From positions 1-64,000 of the forward strand of contig JAKFVA010000011.1 in assembly GCA_021732385.1 (NCBI GenBank): a stretch of 64,000 nucleotides of DNA, written 5' to 3'. Below, one piece after another: positions 22,801-63,624 of the stretch; position 1 is the stretch's first letter, and each line of letters starts with the position of its first letter. The translations under genes were made by a program, and so were the position numbers. The DNA is from Burkholderiales bacterium (GTDB lineage Bacteria > Pseudomonadota > Gammaproteobacteria > Burkholderiales > Burkholderiaceae_C). Under the pieces are notes generated by a model that saw only the letters and a program-made list of their open reading frames with translations, did no database searches and had not been told where the DNA came from.

Positions 22801-23787
22801 GGCCTGAAAACCTTGCGAGCCGTAGCTTCGCCAGTGCCTGCCGCGCAGACACCAGCCAATGCAGCGCCAGGCCTGCCTGCGCGTTCGGCCGGTGCAACGC
22901 AAGCCATGGCAAAAAATTCGGGCAGCACGCGCGATGCCGAGCAGCGCTACACCACATGGGGTTTTGGGCAATGGCCCGAACTCATGGAAATCAGCAAGGG
23001 CAGCCAGACCCTGATTGGTTTTCCGGCGCTGGTGGAGCAGGGCGATGCGGTGGTCATTGCAGTGTTTGATGAACCGTTGGTGGCGCAAACCAAACACCGC
23101 GCCGGGCTGCGCCTTTTGTTTGCCTTGCAGCTCAAGGACACACTCAAGTACCTGGAAAAAAATATCCCTGACCTGCAAAAAATGGCGGTTGGCTACATGG
23201 GTCTGGGTACGCTGGAGCAATTGCGTGAGCAAATTATTCAAGTCGCGCTGGACCGTGCCTTTTTGCAGGCTCCGCTGCCTACGGATGAAATGCAGTTTGC
23301 CCAGCGTCTGCAAGAAGGCAAGGCACGCCTGAGTTTGATTGCGCAGGAAATTGCCCGGTTGTGCGCACAGGTATTGGCCGAGTACCAGACCGCATTACGC
23401 AAGATCAAGGACACCAAGAACGCCCCTGATGCGATGGCCGACTGCACCCAGCAATTGCAGCGCCTGGTACCCAAAGACTTTTGCAGTACCACGCCGTATT
23501 TGCAATTACAGCATTGCGTGCGTTACCTCAAGGCCATTGTCCTGCGGCTGGACAAGCTGCGTGCCGACCCGGCCCGCGATGCCACGCGGCTGGCTGAACT
23601 GCGCCCGCAGGAGCAGCGCTTTTGGCGTCTGGTGGCCGAGCGCCGCGGCGTGCAGGACATGCGCCTGCAAGAGCTGCGCTGGCTGCTGGAGGAGTTGCGG
23701 GTGAGCTTTTTTGCGCAGGAGCTGCGCACGCCGCAGCCAGTCAGTACCAAGCGGCTGGATAAATTGTGGGCGCAATTAAACAGTTGA
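19888..23787 (+). CDS. hrpA: ATP-dependent RNA helicase HrpA
   Basis: A 1299-residue DEAH-box helicase, the usual size for HrpA. Motif I GETGSGKTTQ (about residues 36-45), the DEAH box in IIDEAHERSL, SAT, and motif VI QRAGRCGR are present. Helicase-associated and C-terminal DUF3418-type regions follow. It probably rescues or remodels stalled ribosomes and mRNAs. It is divergent from argA with a 90-nt gap. Confidence 0.96.
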   Translation: MPLTASRLQINFPPALPVSGKRDEIMAAMAAHQVIIVCGETGSGKTTQLPKMALALGRGRLNYPDATRSKLIGHTQPRRLAATTVAKRIAEELNTPLGEVVGYQVRFGAKLERTASVKLMTDGILLAETQTDPLLKAYDTLIIDEAHERSLNIDFLLGYLREILPRRPDLKVIVTSATIDAQRFADHFASTKGPAPVLMVSGRLFAVEQRYRPFEESRDYDLNAAIADGVDELWQGGQGGDILVFLPGEREIREAADHLRKHLAHQPLNRSAEVLPLFARLTQPEQERIFQQHSGRRVVLATNVAETSLTVPGIKYVIDAGTARVKRYSFRSKVEQLLVEPISQAAANQRAGRCGRVANGICIRLYAEQDFNGRPRFTDPEILRSSLAGVILRMKALHLGQVEQFAFLEPPRPKAIADGYQLLVELGAMDEANELTALGRELARLPLDPRVGRMILEARTRSALDEVLVIASALSLQDVRDRPLEQQAAADQAHAKFDDEKSEFVGYLKLWKWLDAARSGQDGKGKSTNRAYENLLRQNFVNVRRVREWRDIHGQLLNVVNEQKWKPNTTPASFEQLHLSLLAGLLGNVGCKMDDEDVYLGARAIKFHRHPGVHLSKKPGRWVVCAELVETTRVFGRGMANIEPQWLEQVGGHLLKKQLLEPHWEKKAAQVMALERATLYGLVVYHNRRVNYGRVDVAGAREIFIREGLAGGQWPPEWDKKLPFLAANQKLIAQIETLEHKSRRQDVLVDEALIYAFYDQQIPFDIYSGVLFEQWYLREVKLQPRLLMLSRDELMRHEAAGITTDAFPHTLRLGGVDCAASYLHEPGDARDGLTVTVPLFVLNQVSDERCEWLVPGMLGGKVLALLKSLPQKPRSRLVPLPESAKKLTEILCATENAAQGALTEALRRQVREMTGLELKLADFKLDMLPAHCFMNLRVVDEHERQLGMSRNLGALKADLGAQARGAFQALAGLKTLRAVASPVPAAQTPANAAPGLPARSAGATQAMAKNSGSTRDAEQRYTTWGFGQWPELMEISKGSQTLIGFPALVEQGDAVVIAVFDEPLVAQTKHRAGLRLLFALQLKDTLKYLEKNIPDLQKMAVGYMGLGTLEQLREQIIQVALDRAFLQAPLPTDEMQFAQRLQEGKARLSLIAQEIARLCAQVLAEYQTALRKIKDTKNAPDAMADCTQQLQRLVPKDFCSTTPYLQLQHCVRYLKAIVLRLDKLRADPARDATRLAELRPQEQRFWRLVAERRGVQDMRLQELRWLLEELRVSFFAQELRTPQPVSTKRLDKLWAQLNS

Positions 23788-47697: not shown

Positions 47698-48618
47698 TCA
47701 GGCCTTGGGGGTGGCTTGCACCATCTTCATGGCAGAAGCAATCAGGGTGGAGACCTCGCTCATGTTGCTGGGCACGATCAAGGTGGTGGTGGCATCAGCA
47801 GCCACTTTGGAGTACGCGTCCATGGCCCGCTCTGCCACTTTTAAATTAACCGCCAGTGCGCCACCGGGGCGCTCAATGGCCTGGGCAATGTAGGCAATCG
47901 CCTTGGCTGTGGCCTCGGCCACTGTAGCAATGGCTGCTGCCTCGCCTTCGGCCTGGTTGATGGCCGCCTGCTTGTCGCCCTCAGAGCGGGCAATGGATGC
48001 CTCGCGCTCGCCAGTGGCAATGTTGATCTGCTCCTGGCGGCGGCCCTCTGAGGCGGCAATCAAGGCGCGTTTTTCGCGCTCAGCGGTAATCTGCTGCTGC
48101 ATGGCGTGCAGGATTTCTTTGGGCGGCGTCAGGTCCTTGATTTCATAGCGCAGCACCTTGACGCCCCAGTTCAGCGCGGCCTCGTCAATGGCGGTCACCA
48201 CAGAGTGGTTGATGGTGGCGCGCTCTTCAAAGGTTTTGTCGAGTTCCAGCTTGCCAATCACCGAGCGCAACGTGGTTTGTGCCAGTTGCGTAATGGCAAT
48301 GATGTAGTTTGATGAGCCGTAGCTGGCGCGCATCGGGTCGGTGACCTGAAAGTACAGGATGCCGTCCACCTGCAACTGCGTGTTGTCCTTGGTGATGCAA
48401 ACCTGGCTGGGTACATCCAGCGCAATTTCTTTCAGCGAATGCTTGTAGGCCACGCGGTCCACAAATGGCACCAGAAAATTTAGCCCAGGGCTGAGCGTGG
48501 CGTTGAATTTGCCCAAGCGCTCGACCACCCAGGCGTTTTGCTGCGGCACCACCTTGAGCGAGCGCACAATAAAAATCACGGCGACGACAAGAAAAACCAG
48601 GGCGATAGGCGTTTGCAT
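47698..48618 (-). CDS. SPFH-domain membrane protein (QmcA/paraslipin type)
   Basis: About 306 residues with one N-terminal membrane segment (QTPIALVFLVVAVIFIV) followed by an SPFH domain (VVPQQNAWVVERLGKF, KDNTQLQVDGILYFQVTD) and an Ala/Glu-rich coiled coil (residues about 190-250). It forms oligomeric membrane microdomain assemblies linked to protease regulation. Pairs with the NfeD gene 34 nt upstream. Confidence 0.93.
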   Translation of the reverse strand: MQTPIALVFLVVAVIFIVRSLKVVPQQNAWVVERLGKFNATLSPGLNFLVPFVDRVAYKHSLKEIALDVPSQVCITKDNTQLQVDGILYFQVTDPMRASYGSSNYIIAITQLAQTTLRSVIGKLELDKTFEERATINHSVVTAIDEAALNWGVKVLRYEIKDLTPPKEILHAMQQQITAEREKRALIAASEGRRQEQINIATGEREASIARSEGDKQAAINQAEGEAAAIATVAEATAKAIAYIAQAIERPGGALAVNLKVAERAMDAYSKVAADATTTLIVPSNMSEVSTLIASAMKMVQATPKA

Positions 48619-48652
48619 AATGCGCTTTCTGAGTAAATTGGTTTTCAGTATG

Positions 48653-49078
48653 TCAGAGCGGTTTGACAATCAGGTGGTGGCCACGCACCTCCACAATGGT
48701 GTGGCTACCCGGTGCAGCCGCAGCGCCTTCAGCCAGCTCTACCCGCCAAATGGCGCCGCGGTAGCTCACATTGGCCTTGCCTTCGGCTTCCCATTGCGTC
48801 ACCTGCACCGTCTCGCCAATATCCATGTTGACGTTTTTATCCATTGCTGCACCTGGCGCCTTGGGCTCCTGCCTGCGCTTGAGGTACCACAGCACCACGG
48901 CCGCGCTGCCTAATACGCCCGCCACCACCAGCTGAAGGCTAAAGCCAGCGCCCAGATGCGCAGCCAGCGCGCCACCCACCATACCCAGAGCCAACATAAG
49001 CAGATAAAAAGTCCCCGTAGCCAGCTCCAGGCCCACCAGTGCGGCAGCCATTAGCCACCATACGCTTGCTTCACTCAT
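48653..49078 (-). CDS. NfeD-like membrane protein
   Basis: A 141-residue protein: two or three hydrophobic N-terminal segments followed by a C-terminal OB-fold (GETVQVTQWEAEGKANVSYRG). Short NfeD proteins pair with SPFH proteins, as here. Start at 49078 (MSEASVWW) fits the first membrane segment; an upstream ATG at 49108 is possible. Confidence 0.9.
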   Translation of the reverse strand: MSEASVWWLMAAALVGLELATGTFYLLMLALGMVGGALAAHLGAGFSLQLVVAGVLGSAAVVLWYLKRRQEPKAPGAAMDKNVNMDIGETVQVTQWEAEGKANVSYRGAIWRVELAEGAAAAPGSHTIVEVRGHHLIVKPL

Positions 49079-49229
49079 TTGATGCCCCCCGTGTTTGCAA
49101 CACCACATTCTGTGGGGAAAACGCCGCCCCTGCGGCTTGTGGCGGATTGATTCTGCGTTTATTTACTTACACTCGCAAAGCCCTCAAAATCCGCTGACTC
49201 CCTAGCCCCCCGTTATTGCCAGGCCTGCT

Positions 49230-51554
49230 ATGAAATTTCGCTTCCCCGTTGTCATCATTGACGAAGACTTCCGCTCGGAGAATACCTCGGGGTCAGGCAT
49301 ACGCGCGCTGGCGCAGGCCATTGAAACCGAGGGCTTTAAGATTCTGGGGGTAACCAGCTACGGCGACCTATCGCAGTTTGCCCAGCAGCAAAGCCGTGCC
49401 AGCGCCTTTATTTTGTCGATTGACGACGAAGAGTTCACTCCTGGCCCTGACCTTGACCCCGCCGTGCTGAACTTGCGCCACTTTATTGAAGAAGTACGCC
49501 GTAAAAACCTGGATGTGCCGATTTATGTGTACGGCGAAACCAAAACCAGCCGCCACATTCCGAACGATATTCTGCGCGAGCTGCATGGCTTCATTCACAT
49601 GTTTGAGGACACGCCCGAATTTGTGGCGCGCCACATCATCCGCGAGGCCAAGAGTTATCTGGAGGGCGTGCAGCCGCCGTTCTTCAAAGCGCTGCTGGAT
49701 TACGCCGAAGACGGCTCTTATTCCTGGCACTGCCCCGGCCACAGTGGTGGCGTGGCGTTCCTGAAAAGTCCGGTGGGCCAGATGTTCCACCAGTTTTTTG
49801 GCGAAAACATGCTGCGCGCCGACGTTTGCAATGCGGTGGAAGAGCTGGGTCAGTTGCTCGACCATGACGGCGCGATTGGTGCCAGCGAGCGCAATGCCGC
49901 GCGCATCTTCAACGCCGACCACTGCTTTTTTGTGACCAATGGCACCTCCACCAGCAACAAGATGGTCTGGCACCACACAGTGGCGCCAGGCGATGTGGTG
50001 GTGGTGGACCGCAATTGCCACAAATCGGTCTTGCACTCCATCATCATGACCGGTGCGATCCCGGTATTTTTAAAGCCCACGCGCAACCACTTTGGCATCA
50101 TCGGCCCCATTCCCAAAGAAGAATTCGAGCCAGCAGCCATCCAGAAAAAAATTGCCGCCAACCCGCTGTTAAAGGGTGTGGATACCAAAAAAATCAAGCC
50201 ACGAGTGCTGACGATTACGCAGTCCACCTACGACGGCGTGCTGTACAACACCGAAACCGTCAAAAGCATGCTGGATGGCTATGTGGACAACCTGCACTTT
50301 GACGAAGCCTGGTTGCCGCACGCCGCCTTTCACCCGTTTTACGGCAGCTACCACGCCATGGGCAAAAAACGGGTGCGGCCCAAGCATGCGGTGGTGTATG
50401 CCACGCAGTCCATCCACAAATTGCTGGCTGGCATCAGCCAGGCCAGTCATGTGCTGGTGCAAGACTCGCAAACCGTGCAGCTCGACCGGCATCTGTTTAA
50501 CGAAGCGTATTTGATGCACACCAGCACTTCCCCGCAATACAGCATCATTGCAAGCTGCGATGTGGCCGCTGCCATGATGGAGCCGCCCGGCGGCACTGCG
50601 CTGGTGGAAGAGAGCATCGCCGAGGCGCTGGACTTTCGCCGGGCCATGCGCAAGATTGATGAAGAGTACGGCGACGACTGGTGGTTCAAGGTCTGGGGCC
50701 CCGAAAAACTGGTGGACGAAGGCATTGGCCGAAGCGATGACTGGGTGCTCAAAGGCGAGGCCAAAAGCGGCGGCAAAAACGGCAAAGTCAACTGGCACGG
50801 CTTTGGCCGCATGGCCAGCGGCTTCAATATGCTGGACCCGATCAAGGCGACCATCGTCACGCCGGGCATGGACTTGAACGGCCGCTTTGCCAAAACCGGT
50901 ATCCCCGCCAGCATCGTCACCAAGTTTTTGGCCGAGCACGGCGTGGTGGTGGAGAAAACCGGCCTGTACAGCTTCTTCATCATGTTCACCATTGGCATCA
51001 CCAAGGGCCGCTGGAACAGCATGCTGACCGCCTTGCAGCAGTTCAAGGACGATTACGCCAAGAACCAGCCGATGTGGCGCGTACTGCCCGAGTTTTGCCA
51101 AAAGTATCCGCGCTACGAAAAAATGGGCCTGGCCGATTTGTGCCAGCATGTGCATGCGCTGTACGCCAAGTACGACATTGCACGCCTGACCACCGACATG
51201 TACTTGAGCGACTTGCAGCCCGCCATGAAGCCCAGCGACGCCTACGCCTGCATTGCCCACCGCAGCACCGAACGGGTGGAGATTGACGAACTGGAAGGGC
51301 GCATTACCGTAGGCCTGGTCACGCCTTATCCCCCCGGCATTCCGCTGCTCATTCCGGGTGAGGTGTTCAATAAAAAGATTGTGGATTACCTCAAGTTCGC
51401 TCGCGAGTTCAACGCCCAGTGCCCCGGTTTTGAAACCGACATCCATGGGCTGGTGGAGATTGAAGGGGAAGATGGCAAACGGCGCTATTACGCGGATTGC
51501 GTGCGGAAAGCCCCCGTTGATAAACATAGCGCAGAGCGCGCGAATTATGGATGA
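49230..51554 (+). CDS. Orn/Lys/Arg decarboxylase (class I, PLP-dependent)
   Basis: A 774-residue fold-type I decarboxylase. The N-terminal wing domain begins FPVVIIDEDFRSEN. The PLP-lysine motif is ATQSIHKLLAG (K397), preceded by HCPGHSGGVAF and FVTNGTSTSNK. The C-terminal domain includes PYPPGIPLLIPGE. The family covers biodegradative arginine, lysine and ornithine decarboxylases; substrate cannot be fixed here. The stop lies within a hairpin that directly precedes the CRISPR array. Confidence 0.93.
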   Translation: MKFRFPVVIIDEDFRSENTSGSGIRALAQAIETEGFKILGVTSYGDLSQFAQQQSRASAFILSIDDEEFTPGPDLDPAVLNLRHFIEEVRRKNLDVPIYVYGETKTSRHIPNDILRELHGFIHMFEDTPEFVARHIIREAKSYLEGVQPPFFKALLDYAEDGSYSWHCPGHSGGVAFLKSPVGQMFHQFFGENMLRADVCNAVEELGQLLDHDGAIGASERNAARIFNADHCFFVTNGTSTSNKMVWHHTVAPGDVVVVDRNCHKSVLHSIIMTGAIPVFLKPTRNHFGIIGPIPKEEFEPAAIQKKIAANPLLKGVDTKKIKPRVLTITQSTYDGVLYNTETVKSMLDGYVDNLHFDEAWLPHAAFHPFYGSYHAMGKKRVRPKHAVVYATQSIHKLLAGISQASHVLVQDSQTVQLDRHLFNEAYLMHTSTSPQYSIIASCDVAAAMMEPPGGTALVEESIAEALDFRRAMRKIDEEYGDDWWFKVWGPEKLVDEGIGRSDDWVLKGEAKSGGKNGKVNWHGFGRMASGFNMLDPIKATIVTPGMDLNGRFAKTGIPASIVTKFLAEHGVVVEKTGLYSFFIMFTIGITKGRWNSMLTALQQFKDDYAKNQPMWRVLPEFCQKYPRYEKMGLADLCQHVHALYAKYDIARLTTDMYLSDLQPAMKPSDAYACIAHRSTERVEIDELEGRITVGLVTPYPPGIPLLIPGEVFNKKIVDYLKFAREFNAQCPGFETDIHGLVEIEGEDGKRRYYADCVRKAPVDKHSAERANYG

Positions 51555-51579
51555 TGGTTGAAAACCGCCATCCATAATT
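51543..51579. terminator. Perfect inverted repeat at the decarboxylase end, abutting the CRISPR array
   Basis: AATTATGGATG (51543-51553) and CATCCATAATT (51569-51579) form an 11-bp stem, with inner GGTT/AACC pairing. One base separates it from the first CRISPR repeat. It spans the decarboxylase stop codon. There is no strong T tract on either side, so it may be a weak terminator or have another role. Confidence 0.55.
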
Positions 51580-51580
51580 T

Positions 51581-53268
51581 GTTCCGGTCAGAGCGCATAT
51601 CCCAATCATCTAGACTGCGGCGTGCCGTCATGGTGCGGTTCTGCCAGTTCCGGTCAGAGCGCATATCCCAATCATCTAGACTTACAGTTATTGAAACCAG
51701 TCCAAGGCGCGCGTTCCGGTCAGAGCGCATATCCCAATCATCTAGACTCTGCTGCGCTATTTGCTCTTTGCTACCGCCGTTCCGGTCAGAGCGCATATCC
51801 CAATCATCTAGACTCGCTTGGCATCACGCCTCAATTCCTCGGTAGTTCCGGTCAGAGCGCATATCCCAATCATCTAGACTTTGGCCGCAAAGCCTGCGTA
51901 GCTTGCGCTTGTTCCGGTCAGAGCGCATATCCCAATCATCTAGACTGTAGAACACACCTATGTGCCCTGCCTGCTGGTTCCGGTCAGAGCGCATATCCCA
52001 ATCATCTAGACTAGCAATGCCAATTGGTGGCGGCGCGTGCTGGTTCCGGTCAGAGCGCATATCCCAATCATCTAGACTGAAACTCGACCGATCTCACATA
52101 CGACGGCTGTTCCGGTCAGAGCGCATATCCCAATCATCTAGACTGGTGCAGTTGGTGGCAATCGGCGCGGCCTAGTTCCGGTCAGAGCGCATATCCCAAT
52201 CATCTAGACTTGTACGTGGCTACGCTGAGACATTCAAGTTGTTCCGGTCAGAGCGCATATCCCAATCATCTAGACTCTTTCAGGCTACGAGTCCGAGATC
52301 TACGCCGTTCCGGTCAGAGCGCATATCCCAATCATCTAGACTAAATAAAAAGCATAAAGCGAGCGATGGTAAGTTCCGGTCAGAGCGCATATCCCAATCA
52401 TCTAGACTCCGATGTCTCCTGAAATGCAGCTACACATGGTTCCGGTCAGAGCGCATATCCCAATCATCTAGACTTAAACGCCATGGCCCGAGAAAAAAGC
52501 CGCGGTTCCGGTCAGAGCGCATATCCCAATCATCTAGACTGTAGCGCGCCAGCGCATGCGAGAACTGCGCGTTCCGGTCAGAGCGCATATCCCAATCATC
52601 TAGACTAGGTCGTCGGGCATTGCGGCCCATGCACCCGTTCCGGTCAGAGCGCATATCCCAATCATCTAGACTGCCGGTGGCGGTGCAGCGCAGCCATATC
52701 CTGTTCCGGTCAGAGCGCATATCCCAATCATCTAGACTGTCTTCAATCACAGCCTTGCGCCCGCCAATGTTCCGGTCAGAGCGCATATCCCAATCATCTA
52801 GACTGCGCAAATCGCGCCCAGCCGCACCAACCCGGTTCCGGTCAGAGCGCATATCCCAATCATCTAGACTGAGGCCACCATAGTCAACTACATGGGTTTG
52901 GTTCCGGTCAGAGCGCATATCCCAATCATCTAGACTCGACGTTGACCGGCTCGACGCCAAATACAACGTTCCGGTCAGAGCGCATATCCCAATCATCTAG
53001 ACTAAAAGCTGGCAGCGCCACTGTGGCACGCGGGTTCCGGTCAGAGCGCATATCCCAATCATCTAGACTAAAAGCTGGCAGCGCCACTGTGGCACGCGGG
53101 TTCCGGTCAGAGCGCATATCCCAATCATCTAGACTCACAGACCCCAAGCTGAGCCAGATCAGAAAGTTCCGGTCAGAGCGCATATCCCAATCATCTAGAC
53201 TTTGAAGATGATGGAACGGTCGTTAGAACGGTGTTCCGGTCAGAGCGCATATCCCAATCATCTAGACT
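51581..53268 (+). CRISPR. Type II-C CRISPR array, 26 identical 36-bp repeats and 25 spacers
   Basis: The repeat starts GTTCCGGTCAGAGCGCATAT and ends CCCAATCATCTAGACT (36 bp). All 26 copies appear identical, including both ends. Spacers are 30 bp, except two of 31 bp (52937-52967 and 53202-53232). Spacers 53004-53033 and 53070-53099 are identical. The crRNA strand is the plus strand, because the tracrRNA anti-repeat pairs with this orientation and a terminator follows at the plus-strand end. Only 26 bp separate it from the upstream coding region, so no ordinary leader is visible there. Confidence 0.98.
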
Positions 53269-53280
53269 AGGTCTGCGGTA

Positions 53281-53306
53281 ACCCCTTGATTCGTCAAGGG
53301 GTTTTT
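53281..53306 (+). terminator. Rho-independent terminator of the CRISPR array transcript
   Basis: ACCCCTTGA (53281-53289) and TCAAGGGGT (53294-53302), loop TTCG, then TTTT. The T tract is on the plus strand, so it stops transcription coming from the array before the convergent cas2 gene. Confidence 0.85.
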
Positions 53307-53339
53307 CGCTTCTGGCATCTTGAAAATCATGGCGCTCAA

Positions 53340-53666
53340 TTAAAAAAGATCAAACTGGTCTGGCGCTTTATTCGGTAGTTGTTTGGTTTTTCCACGAAAA
53401 GTAATGATGCGTTCGTACTGCTTGTCGGTGAATTGAAGGATATTGACTTTGCCGCCCTGGGGCAAAGCATCTTCCACCCGTTTACCGTAGGTGTCAATTT
53501 GCGCCTGACTGGTGCAAAACCGCATATAAACCGAAAACTGCGACATCTCAAAGCCCATGTCTAGCAGCGCGTTGCGAAAATCGGTTGCTGCCTTGCGCTC
53601 AGGCTTTTCCACTACGGGTAAATCAAACATGACGACAACCCACATCAATCGATATCCCGAGAGCAT
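53340..53666 (-). CDS. cas2: CRISPR-associated endonuclease Cas2
   Basis: A 108-residue ferredoxin-fold protein with the acidic residue of the family at D15 (VVVMFDLPV) and SVYMRFC in the next strand. With Cas1 it forms the spacer integration complex. It starts 2 nt after the cas1 stop and is the last gene of the cas operon. A shorter start (MWVVVMFD) at 53645 is possible. Confidence 0.95.
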   Translation of the reverse strand: MLSGYRLMWVVVMFDLPVVEKPERKAATDFRNALLDMGFEMSQFSVYMRFCTSQAQIDTYGKRVEDALPQGGKVNILQFTDKQYERIITFRGKTKQLPNKAPDQFDLF

Positions 53667-53668
53667 TG

Positions 53669-54598
53669 TTATTCGTCATTTAGCGCTGCCGCCAGCGCTA
53701 GAGGTAAGCCGGGCAAAGGCAAGTCGAGTTTGCCGCGTTCTCCCAGATAGACTTGTGCCAGTGACGTAGCCAGTTTTTGTGCGCACACCAGCACTGGTGT
53801 TGCGCCCGAGTCGGTTTGCATGTCGTCATACAGCGTCCGAACCAGAGCACGCTTGGTTTCGGCGGTAATTTGTGCCTCGCCATTGCGTTTAAGCTGCCAG
53901 ACTTTCAAGTCCACCACAGGGCGAAAAGGTTCCATCAAGTCATCGACCAGGCGCATAGGATTGTTTTCGTTGCTGTGGTGCAGCCCTAAGGTGGGGTGCA
54001 AACCTGCTGCAACCACGGCACGTGCGGTGGCGGCGCGCAGCACGGTGTAGCCGTAGTTCAGCATGGCATTGACGCCGCCTGCGTCCTGGTCACGCCTAAA
54101 GTCGCTGCCAAACAGCAGACCCCAGTAGCGGCGTGCGCCCTGCGCTTCCAAGTTCTCCGGGTCGCCAGAACGCACTTTGCTGACAAGGGCAGTCAAGGGT
54201 GCCGTAGGAGCACCAGCAGCTTCTAACGCTGCGGCTTGCTGCTCCAGCTTCGCGCGAACTACTTCGGCCCACAAGCGTTTGAGGATGGGCTTACTCGCAG
54301 CAATTTGCGCATCAAAGCGTTTGGCTTGATGATAGTTACCATCAATAGGTAACAGCATGCCAACTACATTGTGGTTGGCCGCACAAAGCACAAACGGTGC
54401 GCCGCGCTCTGCCAGCGTGATAAGCAAATTGTTGGTGTAACTCAAGCCATGCGCGTTAGCGATGACTGCTGCTACGTCGTCTAGAGGAATTTGGCCGAGC
54501 TCCTTGCGTTCGCCCTCGGTGTCTTGTACCACCATGAAGCCGCGCGACATAAATAAATGCCGCCGGTCGTCTGCGATTTCGACGATTCGGCCGATCAT
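53669..54598 (-). CDS. cas1: CRISPR-associated endonuclease/integrase Cas1
   Basis: A 309-residue Cas1 with the type II sequence style. Catalytic candidates are E151 (NLEAQGARRYW), H207 or H208 (HPTLGLHHSN) and D220 (LVDDLMEPFRP). It captures and integrates new spacers with Cas2. It begins 5 nt after the cas9 stop, so the three genes are one operon. No cas4 or csn2 is present, which fits subtype II-C. Confidence 0.97.
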   Translation of the reverse strand: MIGRIVEIADDRRHLFMSRGFMVVQDTEGERKELGQIPLDDVAAVIANAHGLSYTNNLLITLAERGAPFVLCAANHNVVGMLLPIDGNYHQAKRFDAQIAASKPILKRLWAEVVRAKLEQQAAALEAAGAPTAPLTALVSKVRSGDPENLEAQGARRYWGLLFGSDFRRDQDAGGVNAMLNYGYTVLRAATARAVVAAGLHPTLGLHHSNENNPMRLVDDLMEPFRPVVDLKVWQLKRNGEAQITAETKRALVRTLYDDMQTDSGATPVLVCAQKLATSLAQVYLGERGKLDLPLPGLPLALAAALNDE

Positions 54599-54603
54599 GA
54601 AGG

Positions 54604-57600
54604 TTAATCCTTGAAACCCGGGTCGCGAAGATCTCCAATAGCGGAGATGCCGATATGTCGTGCCTGGGCCTTTTGTAAAGAGCCTGCCGTCTTAAAAAGA
54701 TAGCGTATTTCTTTACTTCGAGCCCGGGAGTCCACGTTTGCTTCTGAGAGATCAATGAACGCTAATGTGCCTTGAATATTTGTATACACAAGCCGAACCG
54801 TGCGAATCAAATCATCAGATAACAAACGAACAACATCACCAATCATTAGCCTCATGACAAGTGATTTCCCTGCCAAACTTATCTTAGTGTTGCGTAGTGC
54901 TTGCCAACCTTGAGCCTCCCCGTGTGAGCGGATGAGTTGATAAGTTTCAAATGTTGAAATAGTGCTTCCACACCATTTACCTTTGTCGTCCCTCCAAATT
55001 TCAACGCAATAGTTGCTGCCACCCACATAACCTTTGTAGGCTTTGGGTTGGCCGTGTTCATCGACGCCATGCCGCTCTAGGTTGCGTGTGCTGTTGATCT
55101 CTACCAAGGTTTTATTTTTGTATTCACGCTGGCGTGGCCCACCGTCTTCTGGTCGGACGCGTCGTGTTCCTACGCCCACATCATGCAATCCCCAAGCGGT
55201 TTCCTCATGCATGGCACCTTGGTATCCGTGGTCAGGCTTGTGACTAACAATAATGTGCTTCAACCCGCGTTCCACTTGCTCACGGTAGTTCGGCCAGGGT
55301 AATGGCATTTCTTCTACCAAGCGGTCTAATTGCATCTCCCGTGCATTAGCGCTGGCCTTGGAAAAACGTTGCAATAAGCCTTGATCTGTAATGCCAATCA
55401 CTGCAGCATCCAGCGCGTGGTGTCTGTGATCGTTGCGGTTTTTGGTGCTGTTGCCAGATAACAGTTGGTTCAATCCGAATTTGCCTCGCAGCATGGCCGT
55501 CATTCGCCCCGGAATAGCGCGCACTTTGTTTGGCGGGCAGACCAGTGATAAATATTCCTTGGCTATGCGCGACAAGTAGGCTGTATCGTTCAGCGCACGC
55601 GCCAAAAAGTCTTTGTCTTCTTTGAGCCAGCGCTGATAACCATCTGGTGCAAAGCGTTTGGCTTTTTCTTTGGGCATCAAGCTTGCGCGTGCCAACATAG
55701 CTTCGTAGTCATAGCCCGGTATAGCCAGCTTGCCAAATGCATCGAATGGGGTACGGTTACCTTTGTCACGATTTGCGCGCCGCATGACCACGGTTTTGTT
55801 GTTAAGGCTGTCATCCAGCGTCATCGAATACGGCAGAATGTGCTCAATTTCCACTGCGCTAGACAGTAACCGTTCAATGCTGATCTGCTCGCCGGTGTAA
55901 GGACATTGCCTGTCGGCCACGTTTTTGGCATTTAGCTCGACCCAAAGCTGCATTTTTTGTGACAGTTCGCGGCGCTTGGCGCGGTCTAGGTTGGCAGGGG
56001 TGATACCGATTACTCCACAAGCCTCCGCGACTTGCTTGTCGTTCAGGTCTTGTTTTATTTTTTGTTCACGCTGTATTTCAAGCTTGCGCTCACGGCTGTA
56101 TTTCAGGTCGCGAGTCACCTCGACAATCACTTCGCTTGGATGTCCATAGCGCTTGATAAGTGCGTTAACCACTTTGCGCAATTCATTCAAACCAATATGA
56201 ACGGTTGGGTTGGCGATCTTGCCAAAACGCTCCTCGTCGCTGCGCGGGTTGTCTTTGGCAAAAGCCACATGGCGGCGCAGCGGGTCACCATAGTAGGGTA
56301 GGGCGTCCATGATCTCGCCAGTTTCCTGCGAATGCGACAACGCGCTATGGCTGTCAAATCCTGCGTTTTTAACGGCTTCGGAATACACAACCACGGCTTT
56401 TGCTAGCTCAGGCAGCACACGATCAAGCGCTGCCCGACTCAAGCTGCCATAACCTTCAGGTAGCCCGGCATTGGCAATATTCTCTGCCGTGGCTTCGTCG
56501 ATACCACTAGTTGCTTGCAACCAGGAAACCAAGGCAGATTCACTGGCTTCGCTCAGCAGTTTGTCAACGATTGCATCTTGTAAGGACAATGCAAAAGTGG
56601 GCCACTTCTCGCCAAAATAACTGTCCCTACTCAATGTGGCGGTGGTGGCATTGCCTTTGAGACGGTCGCGTTTAACGTCTTCTAGATTGAATCGTGTGGT
56701 GCCGGGCAGCTTGAGTGCCTTGAGCATGGCCGTAAAACGAACCTCACCTTGACGCTCCAGCAGCGCAGCAATCTTGTCGCGTTGTTCCAAGCTCAGCGGG
56801 ACTTCCCGAAGATCCACAGTCAACAAGCGCAGATTGTTGAGTTCTTGGTAAATCCTAAAACGCTGTGTACTTGGCAAAGCCAGTGGTGCGCGCTCCTCCT
56901 CAAACAGCAAAGTACAGCGCCCAGGTCGAACGGGTTTGAGCGGGCGTTGATGAAGCAAGATATCTTTAAGTTCATTCCTAGCCGCGTTGTTGAACAAGCC
57001 AGGGTTCAGGCTGCTTTGCTTGCTCCACAGGGCATCAAACTCATGCTCGATCATGGCGCGATCAGCATAAAAGTCGTAAGCCTTCTCTTTTTGTGTTTTG
57101 CCGCGCAGACGTGCACGAACGCTGAGCCGTGCTTCATGCCGCTTGGCCAGCCATTCGCCCAGCGTCAGGCAATTTTCCTGTGCCAGTTTTTCACGCAGAT
57201 CTTTAATGGCTTTCTTTAGTGCGCCACTGTCGTTGTCCTTTTTATCGGTTTTTCGGTTGCTTAAAAAGCCGCGTCGTTGGTTGATGTGGAACAGCGCCCG
57301 AGCAAATTCCGCACCTGTCAGTGCCTCATGCAGTCCTTTTTTGCGCAGTGCGTAAGGGTTCATGCCCACAAGCGTTTTGCATTGCGCTTTGTCCTGCGGA
57401 AAAAATTCCAGGCGCGTGAGTGCTGTAAGCATGCGTGCTTTTCGCTTTAGCAACCGATCGCGGCGACGGCGCATCTGCCGTGCGCCACGTCTGGTAACGG
57501 CCAGCGACGAGCCATCTTTTGGGTTTCGTCCATCTGGGAAAATGCGCACACCCATTCGAATGATGGCTACAGGTTCTGCAGATGCGTTTAGTCGAATCAA

Positions 57601-57663
57601 GCACCAGCCAATGGAGGTGGTGCCAATATCGAGTGCCAAGCGGTAAAGCATTTTGGGCAGCAT
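54604..57663 (-). CDS. cas9: Cas9, compact type II-C RNA-guided endonuclease
   Basis: About 1019 residues from the ATG at 57663, which has AAGGA 8 nt upstream; the longer frame would run across the tracrRNA gene. RuvC-I is LALDIGTTSIGW (D12), then an arginine-rich bridge helix (RRGARQMRRRRDRLLKRKAR). RuvC-II is VIVEVTRDLK (E515). HNH is VEIEHILPYS (H608, with N631 in RRANRDKGN). RuvC-III is HHALDAAVIG (H748/H749, D752). All catalytic residues look intact, so it is probably active. PAM preference cannot be read here. Confidence 0.97.
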   Translation of the reverse strand: MLPKMLYRLALDIGTTSIGWCLIRLNASAEPVAIIRMGVRIFPDGRNPKDGSSLAVTRRGARQMRRRRDRLLKRKARMLTALTRLEFFPQDKAQCKTLVGMNPYALRKKGLHEALTGAEFARALFHINQRRGFLSNRKTDKKDNDSGALKKAIKDLREKLAQENCLTLGEWLAKRHEARLSVRARLRGKTQKEKAYDFYADRAMIEHEFDALWSKQSSLNPGLFNNAARNELKDILLHQRPLKPVRPGRCTLLFEEERAPLALPSTQRFRIYQELNNLRLLTVDLREVPLSLEQRDKIAALLERQGEVRFTAMLKALKLPGTTRFNLEDVKRDRLKGNATTATLSRDSYFGEKWPTFALSLQDAIVDKLLSEASESALVSWLQATSGIDEATAENIANAGLPEGYGSLSRAALDRVLPELAKAVVVYSEAVKNAGFDSHSALSHSQETGEIMDALPYYGDPLRRHVAFAKDNPRSDEERFGKIANPTVHIGLNELRKVVNALIKRYGHPSEVIVEVTRDLKYSRERKLEIQREQKIKQDLNDKQVAEACGVIGITPANLDRAKRRELSQKMQLWVELNAKNVADRQCPYTGEQISIERLLSSAVEIEHILPYSMTLDDSLNNKTVVMRRANRDKGNRTPFDAFGKLAIPGYDYEAMLARASLMPKEKAKRFAPDGYQRWLKEDKDFLARALNDTAYLSRIAKEYLSLVCPPNKVRAIPGRMTAMLRGKFGLNQLLSGNSTKNRNDHRHHALDAAVIGITDQGLLQRFSKASANAREMQLDRLVEEMPLPWPNYREQVERGLKHIIVSHKPDHGYQGAMHEETAWGLHDVGVGTRRVRPEDGGPRQREYKNKTLVEINSTRNLERHGVDEHGQPKAYKGYVGGSNYCVEIWRDDKGKWCGSTISTFETYQLIRSHGEAQGWQALRNTKISLAGKSLVMRLMIGDVVRLLSDDLIRTVRLVYTNIQGTLAFIDLSEANVDSRARSKEIRYLFKTAGSLQKAQARHIGISAIGDLRDPGFKD

Positions 57664-57693
57664 GTCATCGTCCTTACTTGTTGTATCAAGACC

Positions 57694-57722
57694 TTGATTT
57701 TTGTTAACGCAAGCGTTACAGT
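57694..57722 (+). promoter_or_regulatory. tracrRNA promoter with an inverted repeat in the spacer
   Basis: A -35 box TTGATT (57694-57699), 17-bp spacer and -10 box TACAGT (57717-57722) place the transcription start at about 57729, just before the anti-repeat. Between them lies the inverted repeat TAACGC-AA-GCGTTA (57705-57718), overlapping the -10. The cas9 promoter must lie in the same region on the other strand. Confidence 0.65.
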
Positions 57723-57728
57723 AAGCAT

Positions 57729-57816
57729 ACCTAGTGATTGGGATATGCGCTCTGTCCGCTAACAAGCTGAAAGATGCACCAAATGGAAGGCCGCTACATG
57801 CGGCCTTCGCCTTTTT
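57729..57816 (+). ncRNA. tracrRNA of the type II-C system
   Basis: About 88 nt, divergent from cas9. Bases 57735-57754 are exactly complementary to repeat positions 9-28, and pairing resumes near the spacer side (CCG, AAC) after a U-U mismatch and a small internal loop. After the anti-repeat comes AAGCTGAAAGATGCACC, which resembles the tail following the anti-repeat in the Neisseria tracrRNA. The gene ends in a 9-bp stem (GAAGGCCGC 57786-57794 / GCGGCCTTC 57800-57808, loop TACAT) and a T run at 57812-57816. Exact ends need mapping. Confidence 0.92.
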
Positions 57817-58031
57817 ACAAACTAAAATTAGTAGCGTTCAAGATTTGGAAAAATTTGGGTGCTTCGACGCGGTGTGCCAGGTTTGTTGATCGTTTTTAGG
57901 GAATTCCCTTACGGATTCAAAGCCTGCAAGATTGCTTGGGCTTTGACACGCAATTACATCTACGCTTGCGCTCGCGCCGTATAGCTCCCAGCCGCTGCAT
58001 TTTTAGCGGTTGAACTATTTGGAGTTTCCCT

Positions 58032-58583
58032 ATGTTTTCCAAGAAAATTGTTACCTTGGGCGTTGCCCTGGCTTTGTCTGCTGTGTCGGTAGCTGCTTTG
58101 GCCCAAGTCATGGTTGGTGGCGCGCCCATGTTGGCTACCAAGGACATTATTGACAACGCTGTCAATTCCAAAGACCACACCACCCTGGTTGCTGCTGTCA
58201 AAGCCGCAAGCCTGGTGGACACGCTGAAAAGCGCCGGTCCTTTCACCGTGTTCGCACCCACCAACGCCGCCTTTGCTGCTCTGCCCGCTGGCACGGTCGA
58301 CACCCTGCTCAAGCCCGAGAACAAGGCCACCTTGAGCGGCATCCTCACCTACCACGTGGTGGCTGGCAAGGTTGACGCAGCCGCGCTGACCAAGCTGATT
58401 ACCGATGGCAAAGGCTCTGCCACGCTGAAAACCGTGGCCGGTGGTTCGCTGGTGGCCAAGGCTGCAGGCGGCAAAGTCACCGTGACCGACGAAAAAGGCG
58501 GCGCTGCCACCGTGACCATTGCCGATGTGTATCAGTCCAACGGCGTCATTCACGTGGTCGACAAAGTGTTGTTGCCCAAGTAA
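58032..58583 (+). CDS. Secreted fasciclin (FAS1) domain protein
   Basis: A 183-residue protein: signal peptide (ends SVAALA, about residue 24), then one FAS1 domain with the H1-like FTVFAPTNAAFAALPAGT motif, TYHVVAGKV and the C-terminal VIHVVDKVLLPK. GGAG precedes the ATG. Single-FAS1 bacterial proteins are extracytoplasmic and are linked to adhesion or stress response; the exact role is unknown. The 215-base region upstream, after the tracrRNA, contains the palindrome AGGGAATTCCCT (57898-57909) but no gene. Confidence 0.92.
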   Translation: MFSKKIVTLGVALALSAVSVAALAQVMVGGAPMLATKDIIDNAVNSKDHTTLVAAVKAASLVDTLKSAGPFTVFAPTNAAFAALPAGTVDTLLKPENKATLSGILTYHVVAGKVDAAALTKLITDGKGSATLKTVAGGSLVAKAAGGKVTVTDEKGGAATVTIADVYQSNGVIHVVDKVLLPK

Positions 58584-58624
58584 GTGGATTTTTGCACCCC
58601 TTCCAAGTGGTGCAAATGCAAAAA

Positions 58625-58657
58625 AGCCCGTGGCAGTTATGCCATGGGCTTTTTTTA
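58625..58657. terminator. Terminator between the fasciclin gene and the convergent oligomer hydrolase
   Basis: AGCCCGTGGCA (58625-58635) pairs with TGCCATGGGCT (58640-58650), with one G-T pair and loop GTTA. A T run follows on the plus strand and an A run precedes, so it can act in both directions. Confidence 0.9.
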
Positions 58658-58671
58658 TACGCCTTGTAGGC

Positions 58672-60783
58672 TTACTCGGGAATCGTCAGGACATTGCTGC
58701 TGAAAGTAATGGCGTTGGCTGCGGTAGGTGCGGCCACGATGGGCGGCACGTTGGCCGCGGTAATGGCCGGTGCCGCGCCCGGTGTGCCGCCACGCGGTGT
58801 GGTACGCACCACCTGGCTGGGCGGCAGGGCTGCGCCGGTGCGCAGGTTGGCCAGCATCAGGTCCAGCGCCTGGATCAAATAGCGGTGCAGCGGCACATAG
58901 CGCGTGTCGTAACCGGCCAGCGCGGCGCTGCCGATAAAGGCGTCAAAGTGCTGGGCGTTGGTGACTTCGTAGTAATTCAGGCGGCTGTTCGCACCTTCAA
59001 GAATGCGGTTGTTGCCCACATACGGGCGCGAGCTGTGGTTCACCGGCACCAGCGCGTCGGAGCGGCCATGCACGATGATGGCGGGCCGCCCGCGCAGGTT
59101 GCCGGTCTGGCGCACCTGGGCAATGCTGGCTTGCGCGGCCAGCGCGGCGCTGTTGGTGGTGGTCACCAGGTTGCGCAGGCACAAAGCGCCGTCAAAGTTC
59201 AGGTCTTGCGCATTAGTAGAGGGCGAGATGGAATTGCCGTCGAGCACGGCACCGCCCACCGAATTGTTGTTGACGACATTGATGCCACCAGTAGGCGGTA
59301 TGCCGTTGCCGCTGGCAAAAATTTGCATGGCTGAGGCGGTGGCCAGCGCGGTGGGTGTGCCGCCTGCATTGGTGGCGGCATAGCTGAAACCGCACAGGTT
59401 GTCGTTGACGCTGGCGCGCACATAGGTGTTGGCGTAAGTGATGCTAATCGCTGGTACAGCAAACACATAGTGCGAGGCTTGCAGCAAATCAGAATCAGTT
59501 TCTACCCCACCTGCACGCAGGCGTGCCAGCGATTCATCGGCCTGCGCGGCCAGTGTGTTGGCAGCCAGCAAACCATTGGCGCGCAGCGCGGCGCAACGGG
59601 CTCCGGCCCGAGGTGCGTTCAAAAACGCCAGTGCGGGCGCGGCGCTGACCGAAGCCGCCAGAGCGGCGCAGGGCTGGTAGAGGTTGGCCAGGGTGTTGAA
59701 GTCCAGCAGGCTCAGAGCGTTGGACGGCACCGTGGTGGCACCACGCCGAATGGTGAGCGCCGGGTTGGCGGCCACTTGCACCTGTGGCTCGGCCACGGCA
59801 ATGCCGTCAATCAGGCCAGTGGTATCGGCCTCGGCGGCGGCCAGCGCAGCGCCTGCACCGTTGGAAACACTGGACGCAATAACGATGGTGTTGTCAGAGC
59901 GAATGGTTTGCAGGCGTTGGCCGGCGCTGTTAACGGCGCCCAACTGCTCATTGAGAACAAAAAACGCAAACTGCACGGCTTGCAGCGTGTTTTGGCCCCA
60001 GTCGCGTTCGGGGTTGGTCTGCGAGTGCGCGTGCTTGAAGGCCCAGCGGTTGGGCGTGGCGGCATTGAAGGCGGTGCGTTGTGTGTCGTTCAAGGCGGCA
60101 GTGAACTGCGAAACGCCGGCCGCTGCGCTGGCAGCCACCAAGCGGCCGTCGATGCGGTTGACTTGGTTGGCGGTCAAATCGTGTGCGCCATTGCCCGTGC
60201 CTTTGTCGGTGTAGGCGACAGCGCAGCCGTTTTTCAGGCCCCATTCGCCTGATGTGCCGATGGCGCCGTAGACGCCGCGCGAACCACTGGAGGTGGCGGT
60301 GACGATGCAGGCCGCCGCCGGATTGAAGGTGGAAGGAACTTGCACCATCATGGTGACGTTCAGGCGGCCAGTGCCGTCGTCGGCGTACGCAATGTATTCG
60401 TCGCCGGCAATGCGGCCCTCGCCGGTGGTGGCAACACCAGCGGCATTCACATTGGGGCCGTAGAGCGTGCCAAAGCCGCCAGCAGGGGTTAGATCGAGCA
60501 GGGCGCGGTAATTGTTGTAGATGGCCCGTGTGCGCAGTTCTGCAGCGGTGGGGTTGCTGGCGTCGGCAAAGGCAGGCGCGGCGGCAGCCTGCAGACCGGT
60601 GCGGCCCAAGCCGCCAGTCAGCAAGTCGTTGCCAATGCCGTCATAAGCGGTGCGGGCTACAACGCCAGCTACAAAGCTGGGGCGAACATTGACAGGGTCT
60701 TGTGCCGGCGCAGGATCGCTCGATGAGCAGGCGCCTAAAACAGCCACGCAAGCCAGCGCAGCCGTTGAAAAAATGGGTTTCAT
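58672..60783 (-). CDS. Lipoprotein 3-hydroxybutyrate oligomer hydrolase
   Basis: A 703-residue protein with lipobox VLGAC (C19). It resembles the D-(-)-3-hydroxybutyrate oligomer hydrolase family of Ralstonia type: SSGSRGVYGAIGTSGEWGLK, AYTDKGTGNGAHDL, IVIASSVSNGAG (likely nucleophile serine) and IVHGRSDALVPVNHSSR near the C-terminus. The ATG at 60783 has AGGAG upstream; the longer frame is not signal-like. It would cleave PHB oligomers in the periplasm or at the cell surface. Fits with the 3-hydroxybutyrate dehydrogenase at 23890. Confidence 0.85.
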   Translation of the reverse strand: MKPIFSTAALACVAVLGACSSSDPAPAQDPVNVRPSFVAGVVARTAYDGIGNDLLTGGLGRTGLQAAAAPAFADASNPTAAELRTRAIYNNYRALLDLTPAGGFGTLYGPNVNAAGVATTGEGRIAGDEYIAYADDGTGRLNVTMMVQVPSTFNPAAACIVTATSSGSRGVYGAIGTSGEWGLKNGCAVAYTDKGTGNGAHDLTANQVNRIDGRLVAASAAAGVSQFTAALNDTQRTAFNAATPNRWAFKHAHSQTNPERDWGQNTLQAVQFAFFVLNEQLGAVNSAGQRLQTIRSDNTIVIASSVSNGAGAALAAAEADTTGLIDGIAVAEPQVQVAANPALTIRRGATTVPSNALSLLDFNTLANLYQPCAALAASVSAAPALAFLNAPRAGARCAALRANGLLAANTLAAQADESLARLRAGGVETDSDLLQASHYVFAVPAISITYANTYVRASVNDNLCGFSYAATNAGGTPTALATASAMQIFASGNGIPPTGGINVVNNNSVGGAVLDGNSISPSTNAQDLNFDGALCLRNLVTTTNSAALAAQASIAQVRQTGNLRGRPAIIVHGRSDALVPVNHSSRPYVGNNRILEGANSRLNYYEVTNAQHFDAFIGSAALAGYDTRYVPLHRYLIQALDLMLANLRTGAALPPSQVVRTTPRGGTPGAAPAITAANVPPIVAAPTAANAITFSSNVLTIPE

Positions 60784-60912
60784 CTTGTCTCCTGGTATTG
60801 TTATGAGGAGGCACGATAGTAGCCACAAAGTGCATGCAAGAAAGGTCAGCGTAAGTAAATTTTGGTTGTGTTTAACCCCATTGACAAGCGTTGTAGCGGG
60901 TGCACTTGGCCG

Positions 60913-61707
60913 CTATGCGGCTTCCGCCATGCCGCCCACCACCTGGCTGAAACCGCCGTCTACGTAGGTGATTTCGGCGCTCACACCGGCTGCCAAGTCG
61001 CTTAGCAAAAACGCGGCGACGTTGCCCACATCGTCAATCGTCACGTTGCGGCGAATCGGCGCGGTCTCGGCGACCACGCTCAAAATCTTGCCAAAACCCT
61101 TGATACCGCTGGCCGCCAGAGTTTTGATCGGCCCTGCGCTGATGCCATTGGCGCGCAGCCCGCGCTGCTGGCTGCCCAGCGATTCAGCCAGGTAACGCAC
61201 CGACGCTTCCAAAGACGCTTTGGCCAGGCCCATGGTGTTGTAGTTGGGCACGGTGCGCTCGGCGCCCAGGTAGGTGAGCGTGAGCAGCGCCGATTTGTCG
61301 TTCAAATAGGGCAGGGCGGCCTTGGCCATGGCGGGGAAGCTGTAGGCGCTGATGTCGTGCGCGATTTTGAAGCCTTCGCGTGAGAGGCCTTCCAAAAAGT
61401 CACCGGCAATCGCCTCGCGCGGCGCGTAGCCGATGCTGTGCACAAAGCCGTCGAATTGGGGCCAATGCTGCGACAGATCGGTGAAGAATTTTGCAATCTG
61501 CTCGTCGCTTGCCACGTCGCAGTCAAAAATCAGCGTGCTGCCAAAGTCGGCCGCAAATTCGGTGATGCGCTCCTTGAAACGCTCGCCCTGGTAGCTGAAA
61601 GCCAGTTCGGCCCCCTGCTGATGGCAGGCGCGGGCAATGCCGTACGCTATTGAGCGGTTTGAGAGCACGCCCGTGATCAACAGTTTTTTACCCGAGAGAA
61701 ACCCCAT
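60913..61707 (-). CDS. fabI: Enoyl-ACP reductase (NADH) FabI
   Basis: A 264-residue SDR-type enoyl reductase. [15 protein letters not shown] at the N-terminus, VHSIGYAP in the middle and the active-site [12 protein letters not shown] (Tyr-x6-Lys) are diagnostic of FabI. It completes each cycle of fatty acid elongation. It is divergent from yejA with only 36 nt between the assigned start codons. Confidence 0.96.
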
Positions 61708-61743
61708 GCCAGACTCCAGCCATAAATGTTGCAGAATTGTCGC

Positions 61744-63624
61744 ATGGGGTTAAATCATGTTTTGATAGCGCGATGCACAGCATTTGTCGTGGCATGGGCT
61801 GCTTTGGCCCCTGTAAATGCCTATGCGGCGCACGCTTACGCCCAGTTTGGCGACATCAAATACCCCGCTGGCTTTAGCCACTTCGACTATGCCAATCCCA
61901 ATGCGCCCAAGGGCGGGCAAATCACCCTGGTGCCGCCCACGCGCTTGTCCAACTTTGACAAATACAACCCCTATACCCTCAAGGGCAGCGCGCCGCCTGG
62001 CTTGTCGGGCCTGGTGTTCGAGACACTGCTGACCGGCACGCTGGACGAGCCCACCACCTCATACGGCCTGCTGGCCGAAGACGTGACGCTGGCCCCCGAC
62101 AAACTTTCGGCCGTGTTCCGTCTCAACCCATTGGCCAAATTCCACAACGGCGACCCGGTGCTGGCACTTGATGTCAAACATTCGTTTGACCGCCTCACCA
62201 GCAAGGAAGCCGCGCCGCAGTTCCGCACGATTTTTGGCGAGATCAAGGGCGTTAGCGTGGTGGGTGAACGCAGCGTGCGCTTTGACTTCATGCGCGTCAA
62301 TGCCGAGCTCCCGCTGATAGCGGGCAGCCTGCCAGTGTTCAGCCGCAAGTGGGGTGATGGAAAGCCGCTGGACAAAATCATCACCGATGTACCGTTGGGC
62401 ACCGGCCCCTACAAAATTGGCAAGGTCAATTTCGGTAAAGACATCAGCTATCAGCGCGACCCGGCCTATTGGGCCAAAGACCTGAACGTGCGGCGCGGTC
62501 TGTACAACTTTGCGCAGATTCACTACAAGATCTACAAAGACGGCACGGCGCAACAAGAGGCCTTCAAGGCGGGTGAGTTTGACTTGGTGCAGGTGTTCAT
62601 TGCGCGCGACTGGGCCAAGGCTTACCGCGGCAAGGCATTTGACTCGGGCCAGCTCATCCGCAAGGAATTTCAGCACGGCAACGCGGGCGACTTTCAGGGC
62701 TTTTTGCTCAACACCCGCAAGCCCCAACTGCAAGACGTGCGGGTGCGCCAGGCAATTGCCCTGGCGATGGATTTTGAGTGGCTCAACCGCCAGCTTTTCT
62801 ACAACGCCTACACCCGTGTGCGCGGCTACTTTGTGGCCAGCGACTTTGAGGCCAAGGGCCTGCCGGATGCGGCTGAGATGGCGCTGCTGGCCAGTCTGCG
62901 CGATAAGCATCCCCAGTGGTTGGCCGCCGATGTGCTCTCCCAGCCCGTGCCACAAGCGCCCGCCACCAGCGAGCAAACCACCCTGCGCGACAACCTGCGC
63001 CAGGCCCGTGCGCTGCTGCAGGCCGCTGGCTGGGCCTACAAAGACGGCGCTTTGCGCAACGCCAAAGGCCAGGCCATGGAGCTTGAATTTTTGGACAGCG
63101 GCGGCTCCATGGGCCGGGTGGTGACGCCGCTGGCGAAAAACCTGGAGAAGCTGGGCATCAAGGTCAACACCCGGGTGGTTGATTTTGCGGTGTACCAAAA
63201 GCGCATTGACGTGTTTGACTTTGAAGTCATCAGCACGCGCTGGGTTGGCAGCGAAGCGCCGGGCACCGAACTGCTCGAGCGCTTTGGCAGCAAGTCAGCC
63301 GACACCGAAGGCTCGGGCAATGTGGTGGGCGTAAAAAATCCGGTGGTCGATGCCCTGCTGGACCGCGTGGTGTCTGCGCAAACCCGCCCTGAACTGGTCG
63401 CCAGCGTGCGCGCCCTTGACCGCGTGCTGCGCCATGGCCACTACAACATTCCCCACTGGTACAGCGGTATTCACCGTGTGGCCTACCGCGCCGGGCGCTT
63501 TGAGCAGCCGGCAGTAACACCACGCTACTACCAGCCCGAAAGCTGGAGCACCGGCCTGTGGTGGGCCAGCCCGGCCAATCTGGCGGAAACCGCATCGCAG
63601 AACGCCCCCAGCAAAAAGCCCTGA
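61744..63624 (+). CDS. yejA: Peptide ABC transporter substrate-binding protein YejA
   Basis: About 626 residues: signal peptide (ends NAYA), then a family 5 solute-binding protein. [23 protein letters not shown] and [16 protein letters not shown] are typical of YejA. The ATG at 61744 is preferred; another start at 61726 exists. It captures oligopeptides (in relatives also microcin C-type antibiotics) for the YejBEF importer. A YejB permease gene follows 14 nt later. Confidence 0.92.

Follow-up and report, generated by a model that had tools for sequence, protein, structure and literature searches.

The CRISPR-Cas9 locus and its surroundings

The window, that is, the whole stretch of 64,000 nucleotides that was analysed, harbors a type II-C gene set composed of cas9, cas1 and cas2, without csn2 and without cas4 between 47698 and 63624, together with a CRISPR array. 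Divergent from cas9 lies a short segment (57729-57816, + strand) that, judging from its sequence, is almost certainly the tracrRNA gene of this complete type II-C CRISPR-Cas9 system. The features considered here are given in the order of their coordinates.

51542-51580, + strand: long hairpin (17 pairs, one mismatch) that directly adjoins the first repeat
51581-53268, + strand (crRNA sense): CRISPR array of 26 identical 36-nt repeats and 25 spacers of 30-31 nt
53280-53306, + strand: hairpin AACCCCTTGATTCGTCAAGGGGTTTTT resembling a terminator, noted by eye past the last repeat
53340-53666, - strand: cas2 (TIGR01573, E 4.4e-17)
53669-54598, - strand: cas1 of type II (TIGR03639, E 1.2e-71)
54604-57663, - strand: cas9, 1019 aa (TIGR01865, E 3e-184), with ATG at 57663 and AAGGA 7 nt before it
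57694-57722, + strand: sigma-70-like promoter TTGATT-17-TACAGT, 8 of 12 consensus bases, position conserved in relatives
57729-57816, + strand: probable tracrRNA gene, its start placed from the promoter and its end at the T run
57735-57754, + strand: core of the anti-repeat, with exact complementarity to the crRNA repeat over 20 bases, from sequence and repeat coevolution
57755-57763, + strand: lower anti-repeat stem with mismatches, where TCCGCTAAC pairs with GTTCCGG of the repeat in cofolding, with an internal loop
57757-57785, + strand: conserved tail and nexus CGCTAACAAGCTGAAAGATGCACCAAATG, near-invariant in relatives, overlapping the lower stem
57786-57816, + strand: intrinsic terminator, a 9-bp stem followed by T5, from scan, folding and relatives

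The Cas9, Cas1 and Cas2 models each scored over their cut-offs, and all three genes are open. The RuvC and HNH motifs of the window Cas9 align with a solved Cas9 (9ar4), and this protein is the only Cas9 over the cut-off in the whole genome. When ten proteins encoded at 47698-63624 were compared with the PADLOC defence models, the matches comprised the three cas proteins only; the nearest non-cas genes encode an Orn/Lys/Arg decarboxylase and a fasciclin-domain protein. Within the array, spacers 22 and 23 are identical (53004-53099), as if one repeat-spacer unit had been duplicated in tandem. At the other end of the window, a TPP riboswitch was found over the gathering score at 1266-1386 of the - strand.

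Components of the tracrRNA gene in the window and in its relatives

A sequence-only reading of this DNA had proposed a 20-base exact anti-repeat flanked by partial pairing, and both were recovered. The anti-repeat TGATTGGGATATGCGCTCTG at 57735-57754 is, over exactly 20 bases, the reverse complement of the array repeat GTTCCGGTCAGAGCGCATATCCCAATCATCTAGACT. When this repeat was aligned with the window outside the array, the anti-repeat was the top local alignment with a score of 47, the next-best alignments reaching 22 (+ strand) and 21 (- strand), and the maximum in 40 dinucleotide shuffles of the array-less window, both strands included, being 30. The pairing beside the core is also real, as the duplex between the tracrRNA and the + strand repeat was computed at -50.5 kcal/mol versus a mean of -18.7 and a minimum of -30.2 kcal/mol for 300 mononucleotide shuffles of the tracrRNA. 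Throughout the genome, the tracrRNA segment matched, at E values up to 0.001, only the 26 array repeats besides itself. An Rfam search at the tracrRNA site gave no family over its gathering score, and three sub-threshold matches (E 0.6-3.7) look like chance.

The repeat taken from the opposite strand paired with the tracrRNA at -17.1 kcal/mol, which is the level of the shuffles. Because of this difference in pairing, and because the tail and the terminator lie downstream of the anti-repeat here as well as in relatives, crRNA polarity can be assigned to the + strand, and the earlier claim that this polarity is fixed is supported. These data support a model in which crRNAs would be read from 51581 towards cas2. 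By this pairing polarity, the array (+) runs opposite to the cas operon (-). The repeat 3′ end corresponds to TANA(A/C)T, a -10-like hexamer, in all 51 arrays compared, possibly fitting the promoters inside repeats that the discussion of PMC12080349 mentions for II-C systems, citing Dugar 2013.

A search of 84,980 species genomes yielded 62 related Cas9 loci, at 50 of which an array was detected, making 51 arrays with that of the window. It was observed that a divergent anti-repeat precedes cas9 in 49 of these 51, and these 49 loci constituted the anti-repeat set; the two set aside were L034, which was masked in the anti-repeat search but in which the tail is present, and L039, which offers 499 nt upstream only. 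Over 20 columns in the 49 loci, repeat and anti-repeat match at 896 of 980 positions, whereas loci re-paired at random gave 751 ± 9 matches and none of 2000 re-pairings was as high; since re-pairing does not keep relatedness, part of this excess may be shared ancestry. Three-way changes occur at single repeat/anti-repeat columns, for example column 9 (T/C/G) and column 21 (A/C/T).

The tail claimed to follow the anti-repeat is present as well, and it is near-invariant in 36 aligned sequences (one from the window and the others from 35 of the remaining 48 loci), the consensus across relatives being CGCTAACAAGC...GCACCAAATG. Within the 700 nt searched upstream of cas9, CGCTAACAAGC lies on the divergent strand in 60 of the 62 loci, at a distance of 83-418 nt; it was absent upstream of cas9 in L066 and in the short upstream stretch of L039. 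Altogether, CGCTAACAAGC occurs 61 times in 698,064 bases, both strands counted, against about 0.33 expected. The window's tail presumably resembles that of Neisseria, to which it had been likened. By eye, the nexus loop has a 3-bp form in L010 and L015 and extends into long stems in L011, L051 and L054, which is the kind of variation expected of a hairpin. Run on the tracrRNA alone, RNAalifold gave 11 pairs, of which four were changed on both sides, with a covariation term of -0.44, which indicates little covariation.

The stem of the terminator spans 57786-57808 and its T5 run occupies 57812-57816. About one such terminator (0.9) is expected by chance in the scanned region, and the single site is thus close to chance; the weight given to the terminator, which had also been claimed before, derives from the relatives, because a loose rule (six pairs, then four T in eight) found one in 49 of 49 loci versus 165 of 980 block-shuffled tails.

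The claim of a fitting sigma-70 promoter stood in part. The two hexamers are TTGATT (57694-57699) and TACAGT (57717-57722), separated by 17 nt, and with its 8 of 12 consensus bases the site falls below the minimum of nine required in a consensus promoter scan, which reported none. What stood was its position, as in 45 of the 49 loci the best promoter-like site has its second hexamer between -39 and -43 relative to the tail. The best promoter score averaged 8.04 in the 49 loci versus 6.32 in shuffles, in a comparison of scores and not of positions. The putative promoter is weak by itself and, by consensus, the weakest part of the tracrRNA gene, yet its place is conserved.

Between the two hexamers, a near-palindrome, TAACGC-AA-GCGTTA, was noticed at 57705-57718. 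It was considered as a conserved operator and rejected, its sequence being found in one of 49 promoter regions, that of the window itself, and arms of at least 6 in seven of 49. At another locus, L063 from Curvibacter sp. CHRR-16, a degenerate crRNA-sense repeat was found just upstream of the tracrRNA, next to the anti-repeat; it may be a relic of how the tracrRNA arose, or else a natural single guide.

Some RNAs with a cas9-regulating role are named tracr-L or scaRNA. The RNA considered here could also, or mainly, regulate cas9 from the shared divergent promoter region, beyond guiding immunity, and the distance of ~65 nt between the cas9 start codon and the tracrRNA start, the near-palindrome and the degenerate repeat of L063 would agree with this. 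Such a role is, however, quite improbable, since nothing repeat-like above background was found upstream of the window tracrRNA, the 30 nt upstream of the degenerate repeat of L063 have no counterpart elsewhere in that locus at fewer than 12 mismatches, and the palindrome is poorly represented among the promoter regions, as counted above. A guide RNA for immunity is the reading followed below.

Spacer targets and the start of the array

Two spacers match another contig of the same genome, C25 (locus L079), with two mismatches each: spacer 19 at 23132-23160 (E 7.5e-6) and spacer 20 at 22096-22125 (E 4.9e-5), the genes hit being a ParB-like gene and a nucleotide kinase gene. C25 comprises 26,686 bases with integrase, terminase, portal and capsid genes, and it is a prophage or else a contig of a phage that was assigned to the bin of this genome. 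A genome that retains a phage region matched by two of its own spacers may have weak immunity, although each match carries two mismatches. For spacer 19, one mismatch affects the last base, which is PAM-adjacent by the polarity given above and could explain the tolerance; escape or an anti-CRISPR are other possible causes for both spacers. None of the NCBIfam anti-CRISPR models matched in 10 selected C25 proteins of 106-321 aa.

This phage region, together with the promoter that is weak by consensus, could be taken to mean that the system is a decayed remnant, whose anti-repeat was left by a stray inverted copy of the repeat and from which no working tracrRNA is made. We give this hardly any credence, as the functional blocks are placed as in relatives, cas9, cas1 and cas2 are open and the 26 repeats are identical, and the working tracrRNA is retained as the preferred reading.

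Other spacers point to phages outside this genome. Spacer 1 resembles a replication gene of P2-like phages, with 3-4 mismatches in Vibrio, Pasteurella and Enterobacter phages (an unannotated stretch in the Enterobacter phage) and 2 mismatches in a viral contig. Spacer 2 is likewise similar to this P2-like replication gene, with 3 mismatches in two Pasteurella phages, 2 mismatches in two viral contigs and a single gap in three Acidovorax phages. In the phage collection, where eight records were matched and one, H2, was left out of inspection, these similarities are weak (E 0.003 to 0.5); the exact cores of 26 and 25 bases that spacers 1 and 2 share with viral contigs are stronger. Viral contigs were searched with five spacer cores (19, 20, 22/23, 2 and 1), of which two gave three contigs in all and three were without match, and a plasmid search returned only a related CRISPR locus. 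Two further spacer matches in the own genome, at E 0.6, were taken as chance. The 3′ flanks of the protospacers of spacers 1, 2, 19 and 20 often start with C, with no clear PAM; none is claimed, because spacers 1 and 2 hit homologous positions of a single gene and a number of their matches have mismatches at the PAM-side end. The flanks thus speak neither for nor against the crRNA polarity given above. Among relatives, L011 spacers matched five Corynebacterium phage records (E 4e-4, 47 nt) and L015 spacers five records (E 0.04), while those of L009 matched none of the phages.

The hairpin at 51542-51580, which ends flush with the first repeat, folds alone at -18.1 kcal/mol with a z of -6.0 (200 shuffles), and a longer stretch containing hairpin and repeat reached a z of only -1.9. 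From its position, this structure would lock or occupy the guide of the extraneous crRNA. Array starts were compared across 32 loci, arrays with a 5′ end less than 120 nt from the locus end having been excluded, and the stem rule was applied to 31 of them, one start with an N being removed. Such a hairpin was found at 8 of 31 array starts, with differing sequences, versus 0 of 341 control stretches, and a folding-energy z below -2 at 9 of 32 array starts versus 11 of 255 controls. The first repeat was unmutated in 8 of 8 arrays with the hairpin, whereas in the 23 arrays without it this repeat was mutated in 14 and not in nine (Fisher 0.0035). The pattern is treated as a lead, because the loci lack independence and the cut-off was chosen with the data in view.

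A tentative interpretation, somewhat less likely to be right than wrong, is that in this mainly betaproteobacterial II-C clade the spacer-less first repeat is silenced either by a flush hairpin or by its own decay, in a mutually exclusive manner, the window being of the hairpin kind and the hairpin being part of the CRISPR module and not of the upstream gene. If true, the hairpin would sequester the guide of the extraneous crRNA, so that this crRNA could not use up tracrRNA and Cas9. Against such two-way silencing, 9 of 31 array starts show neither hairpin nor repeat decay. Hairpins and repeat decay acting against extraneous crRNA are already described in PMC12080349, which also states that two-thirds of the helix systems are without a mutated extra repeat and without a terminator; the association of hairpin with unmutated repeat is therefore partly known.

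The array-start hairpin was also considered as the terminator of the upstream gene and rejected, as none overlapping the stop codon likewise was found in 19 relatives of this gene; other terminator-like hairpins lie further past the decarboxylase gene in several of them, such as L095. At 51510-51554, the upstream decarboxylase runs on for 13-15 residues beyond the point where 17 of the 19 relatives stop, L108 and L109 ending otherwise. Since the gene ends earlier in these 17, the hairpin-forming stretch is not its usual end, and it looks as if the end of the decarboxylase had been altered on the arrival of the array.

Proposed function and comparison with known systems

The sequence evidence altogether supports the identity proposed for the segment by the sequence-only reading, namely the guide RNA partner of the adjacent Cas9. 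The sequence parts, their conservation, the coevolution of repeat and anti-repeat, the open cas genes and the phage matches of four spacers were established by computation; transcription of the tracrRNA, its processing, Cas9 binding and cutting are predictions from them. In the proposed mechanism, the sigma-70 promoter between cas9 and the tracrRNA gene would start a + strand transcript of ~88 nt, divergent from cas9, whose anti-repeat would base-pair with the repeat portion of the crRNAs, these being + strand transcripts of the array. The resulting duplex would be processed by RNase III or without it, RNase III-independent processing being reported for some II-C systems in the text of PMC4624362. 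Cas9 would then bind the processed duplex, the conserved tail CGCUAACAAGC...GCACCAAAUG and the terminator hairpin, and the loaded Cas9 would cut phage DNA matching a spacer.

This assignment supplies a likely guide RNA partner for an uncharacterised small Cas9 (1019 aa), and from it follows a dual guide that can be tested. Moreover, the tail consensus found across the clade, in 60 of 62 loci, offers a means to annotate such tracrRNAs. Otherwise, the gene is one more case of a well-known class, and its discovery by an anti-repeat near cas9 follows the method presented in PMC7606464. A literature search, which did not extend to supplements, found no description of this very locus.

Among known systems, the minimal cas9-cas1-cas2 set and, by the predicted polarity, an array transcribed opposite to the cas operon are features that the window shares with the II-C systems of Neisseria meningitidis and Pasteurella multocida, as described in PMC3936727. 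The same gene order was found in Limnohabitans sp. TEGF004, on the plasmid pTEGF4 (NZ_AP027057.1), whose array is matched by that of the window and which carries the same tail (GGGCGCTAACAAGCTGAAG...CAGATGCATCAAATG) divergent from cas9. It differs from the window in being located on a 149-kb plasmid and in its longer nexus hairpin. Since the gene table of pTEGF4 holds no RNA genes by design, the missing tracrRNA entry is uninformative. On this plasmid, the II-C system lies beside a PemK/MazF-family toxin gene and an antitoxin gene.

In the type II-C system of Bordetella pseudohinzii, as presented in PMC4624362, a putative divergent tracrRNA with promoter and terminator lies upstream of cas9-cas1-cas2. 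When the layouts, not the sequences, are compared, this system and the window have in common the order cas9-cas1-cas2, the divergent tracrRNA, 36-nt repeats and an array downstream of the cas genes (PMC4624362). Both encode a small Cas9 (3,117 bp in B. pseudohinzii and 3,060 bp in the window), and spacers are mostly 30-nt in the former and 30-31 nt in the latter (PMC4624362). The terminal repeat of B. pseudohinzii shows three changes and another repeat one, whereas the 26 repeats of the window are identical, and in that species cas expression and crRNA processing were demonstrated by RT-PCR, while the window is known from its sequence alone (PMC4624362). The window tracrRNA is an ordinary case, its layout having already been published for a related type II-C system.
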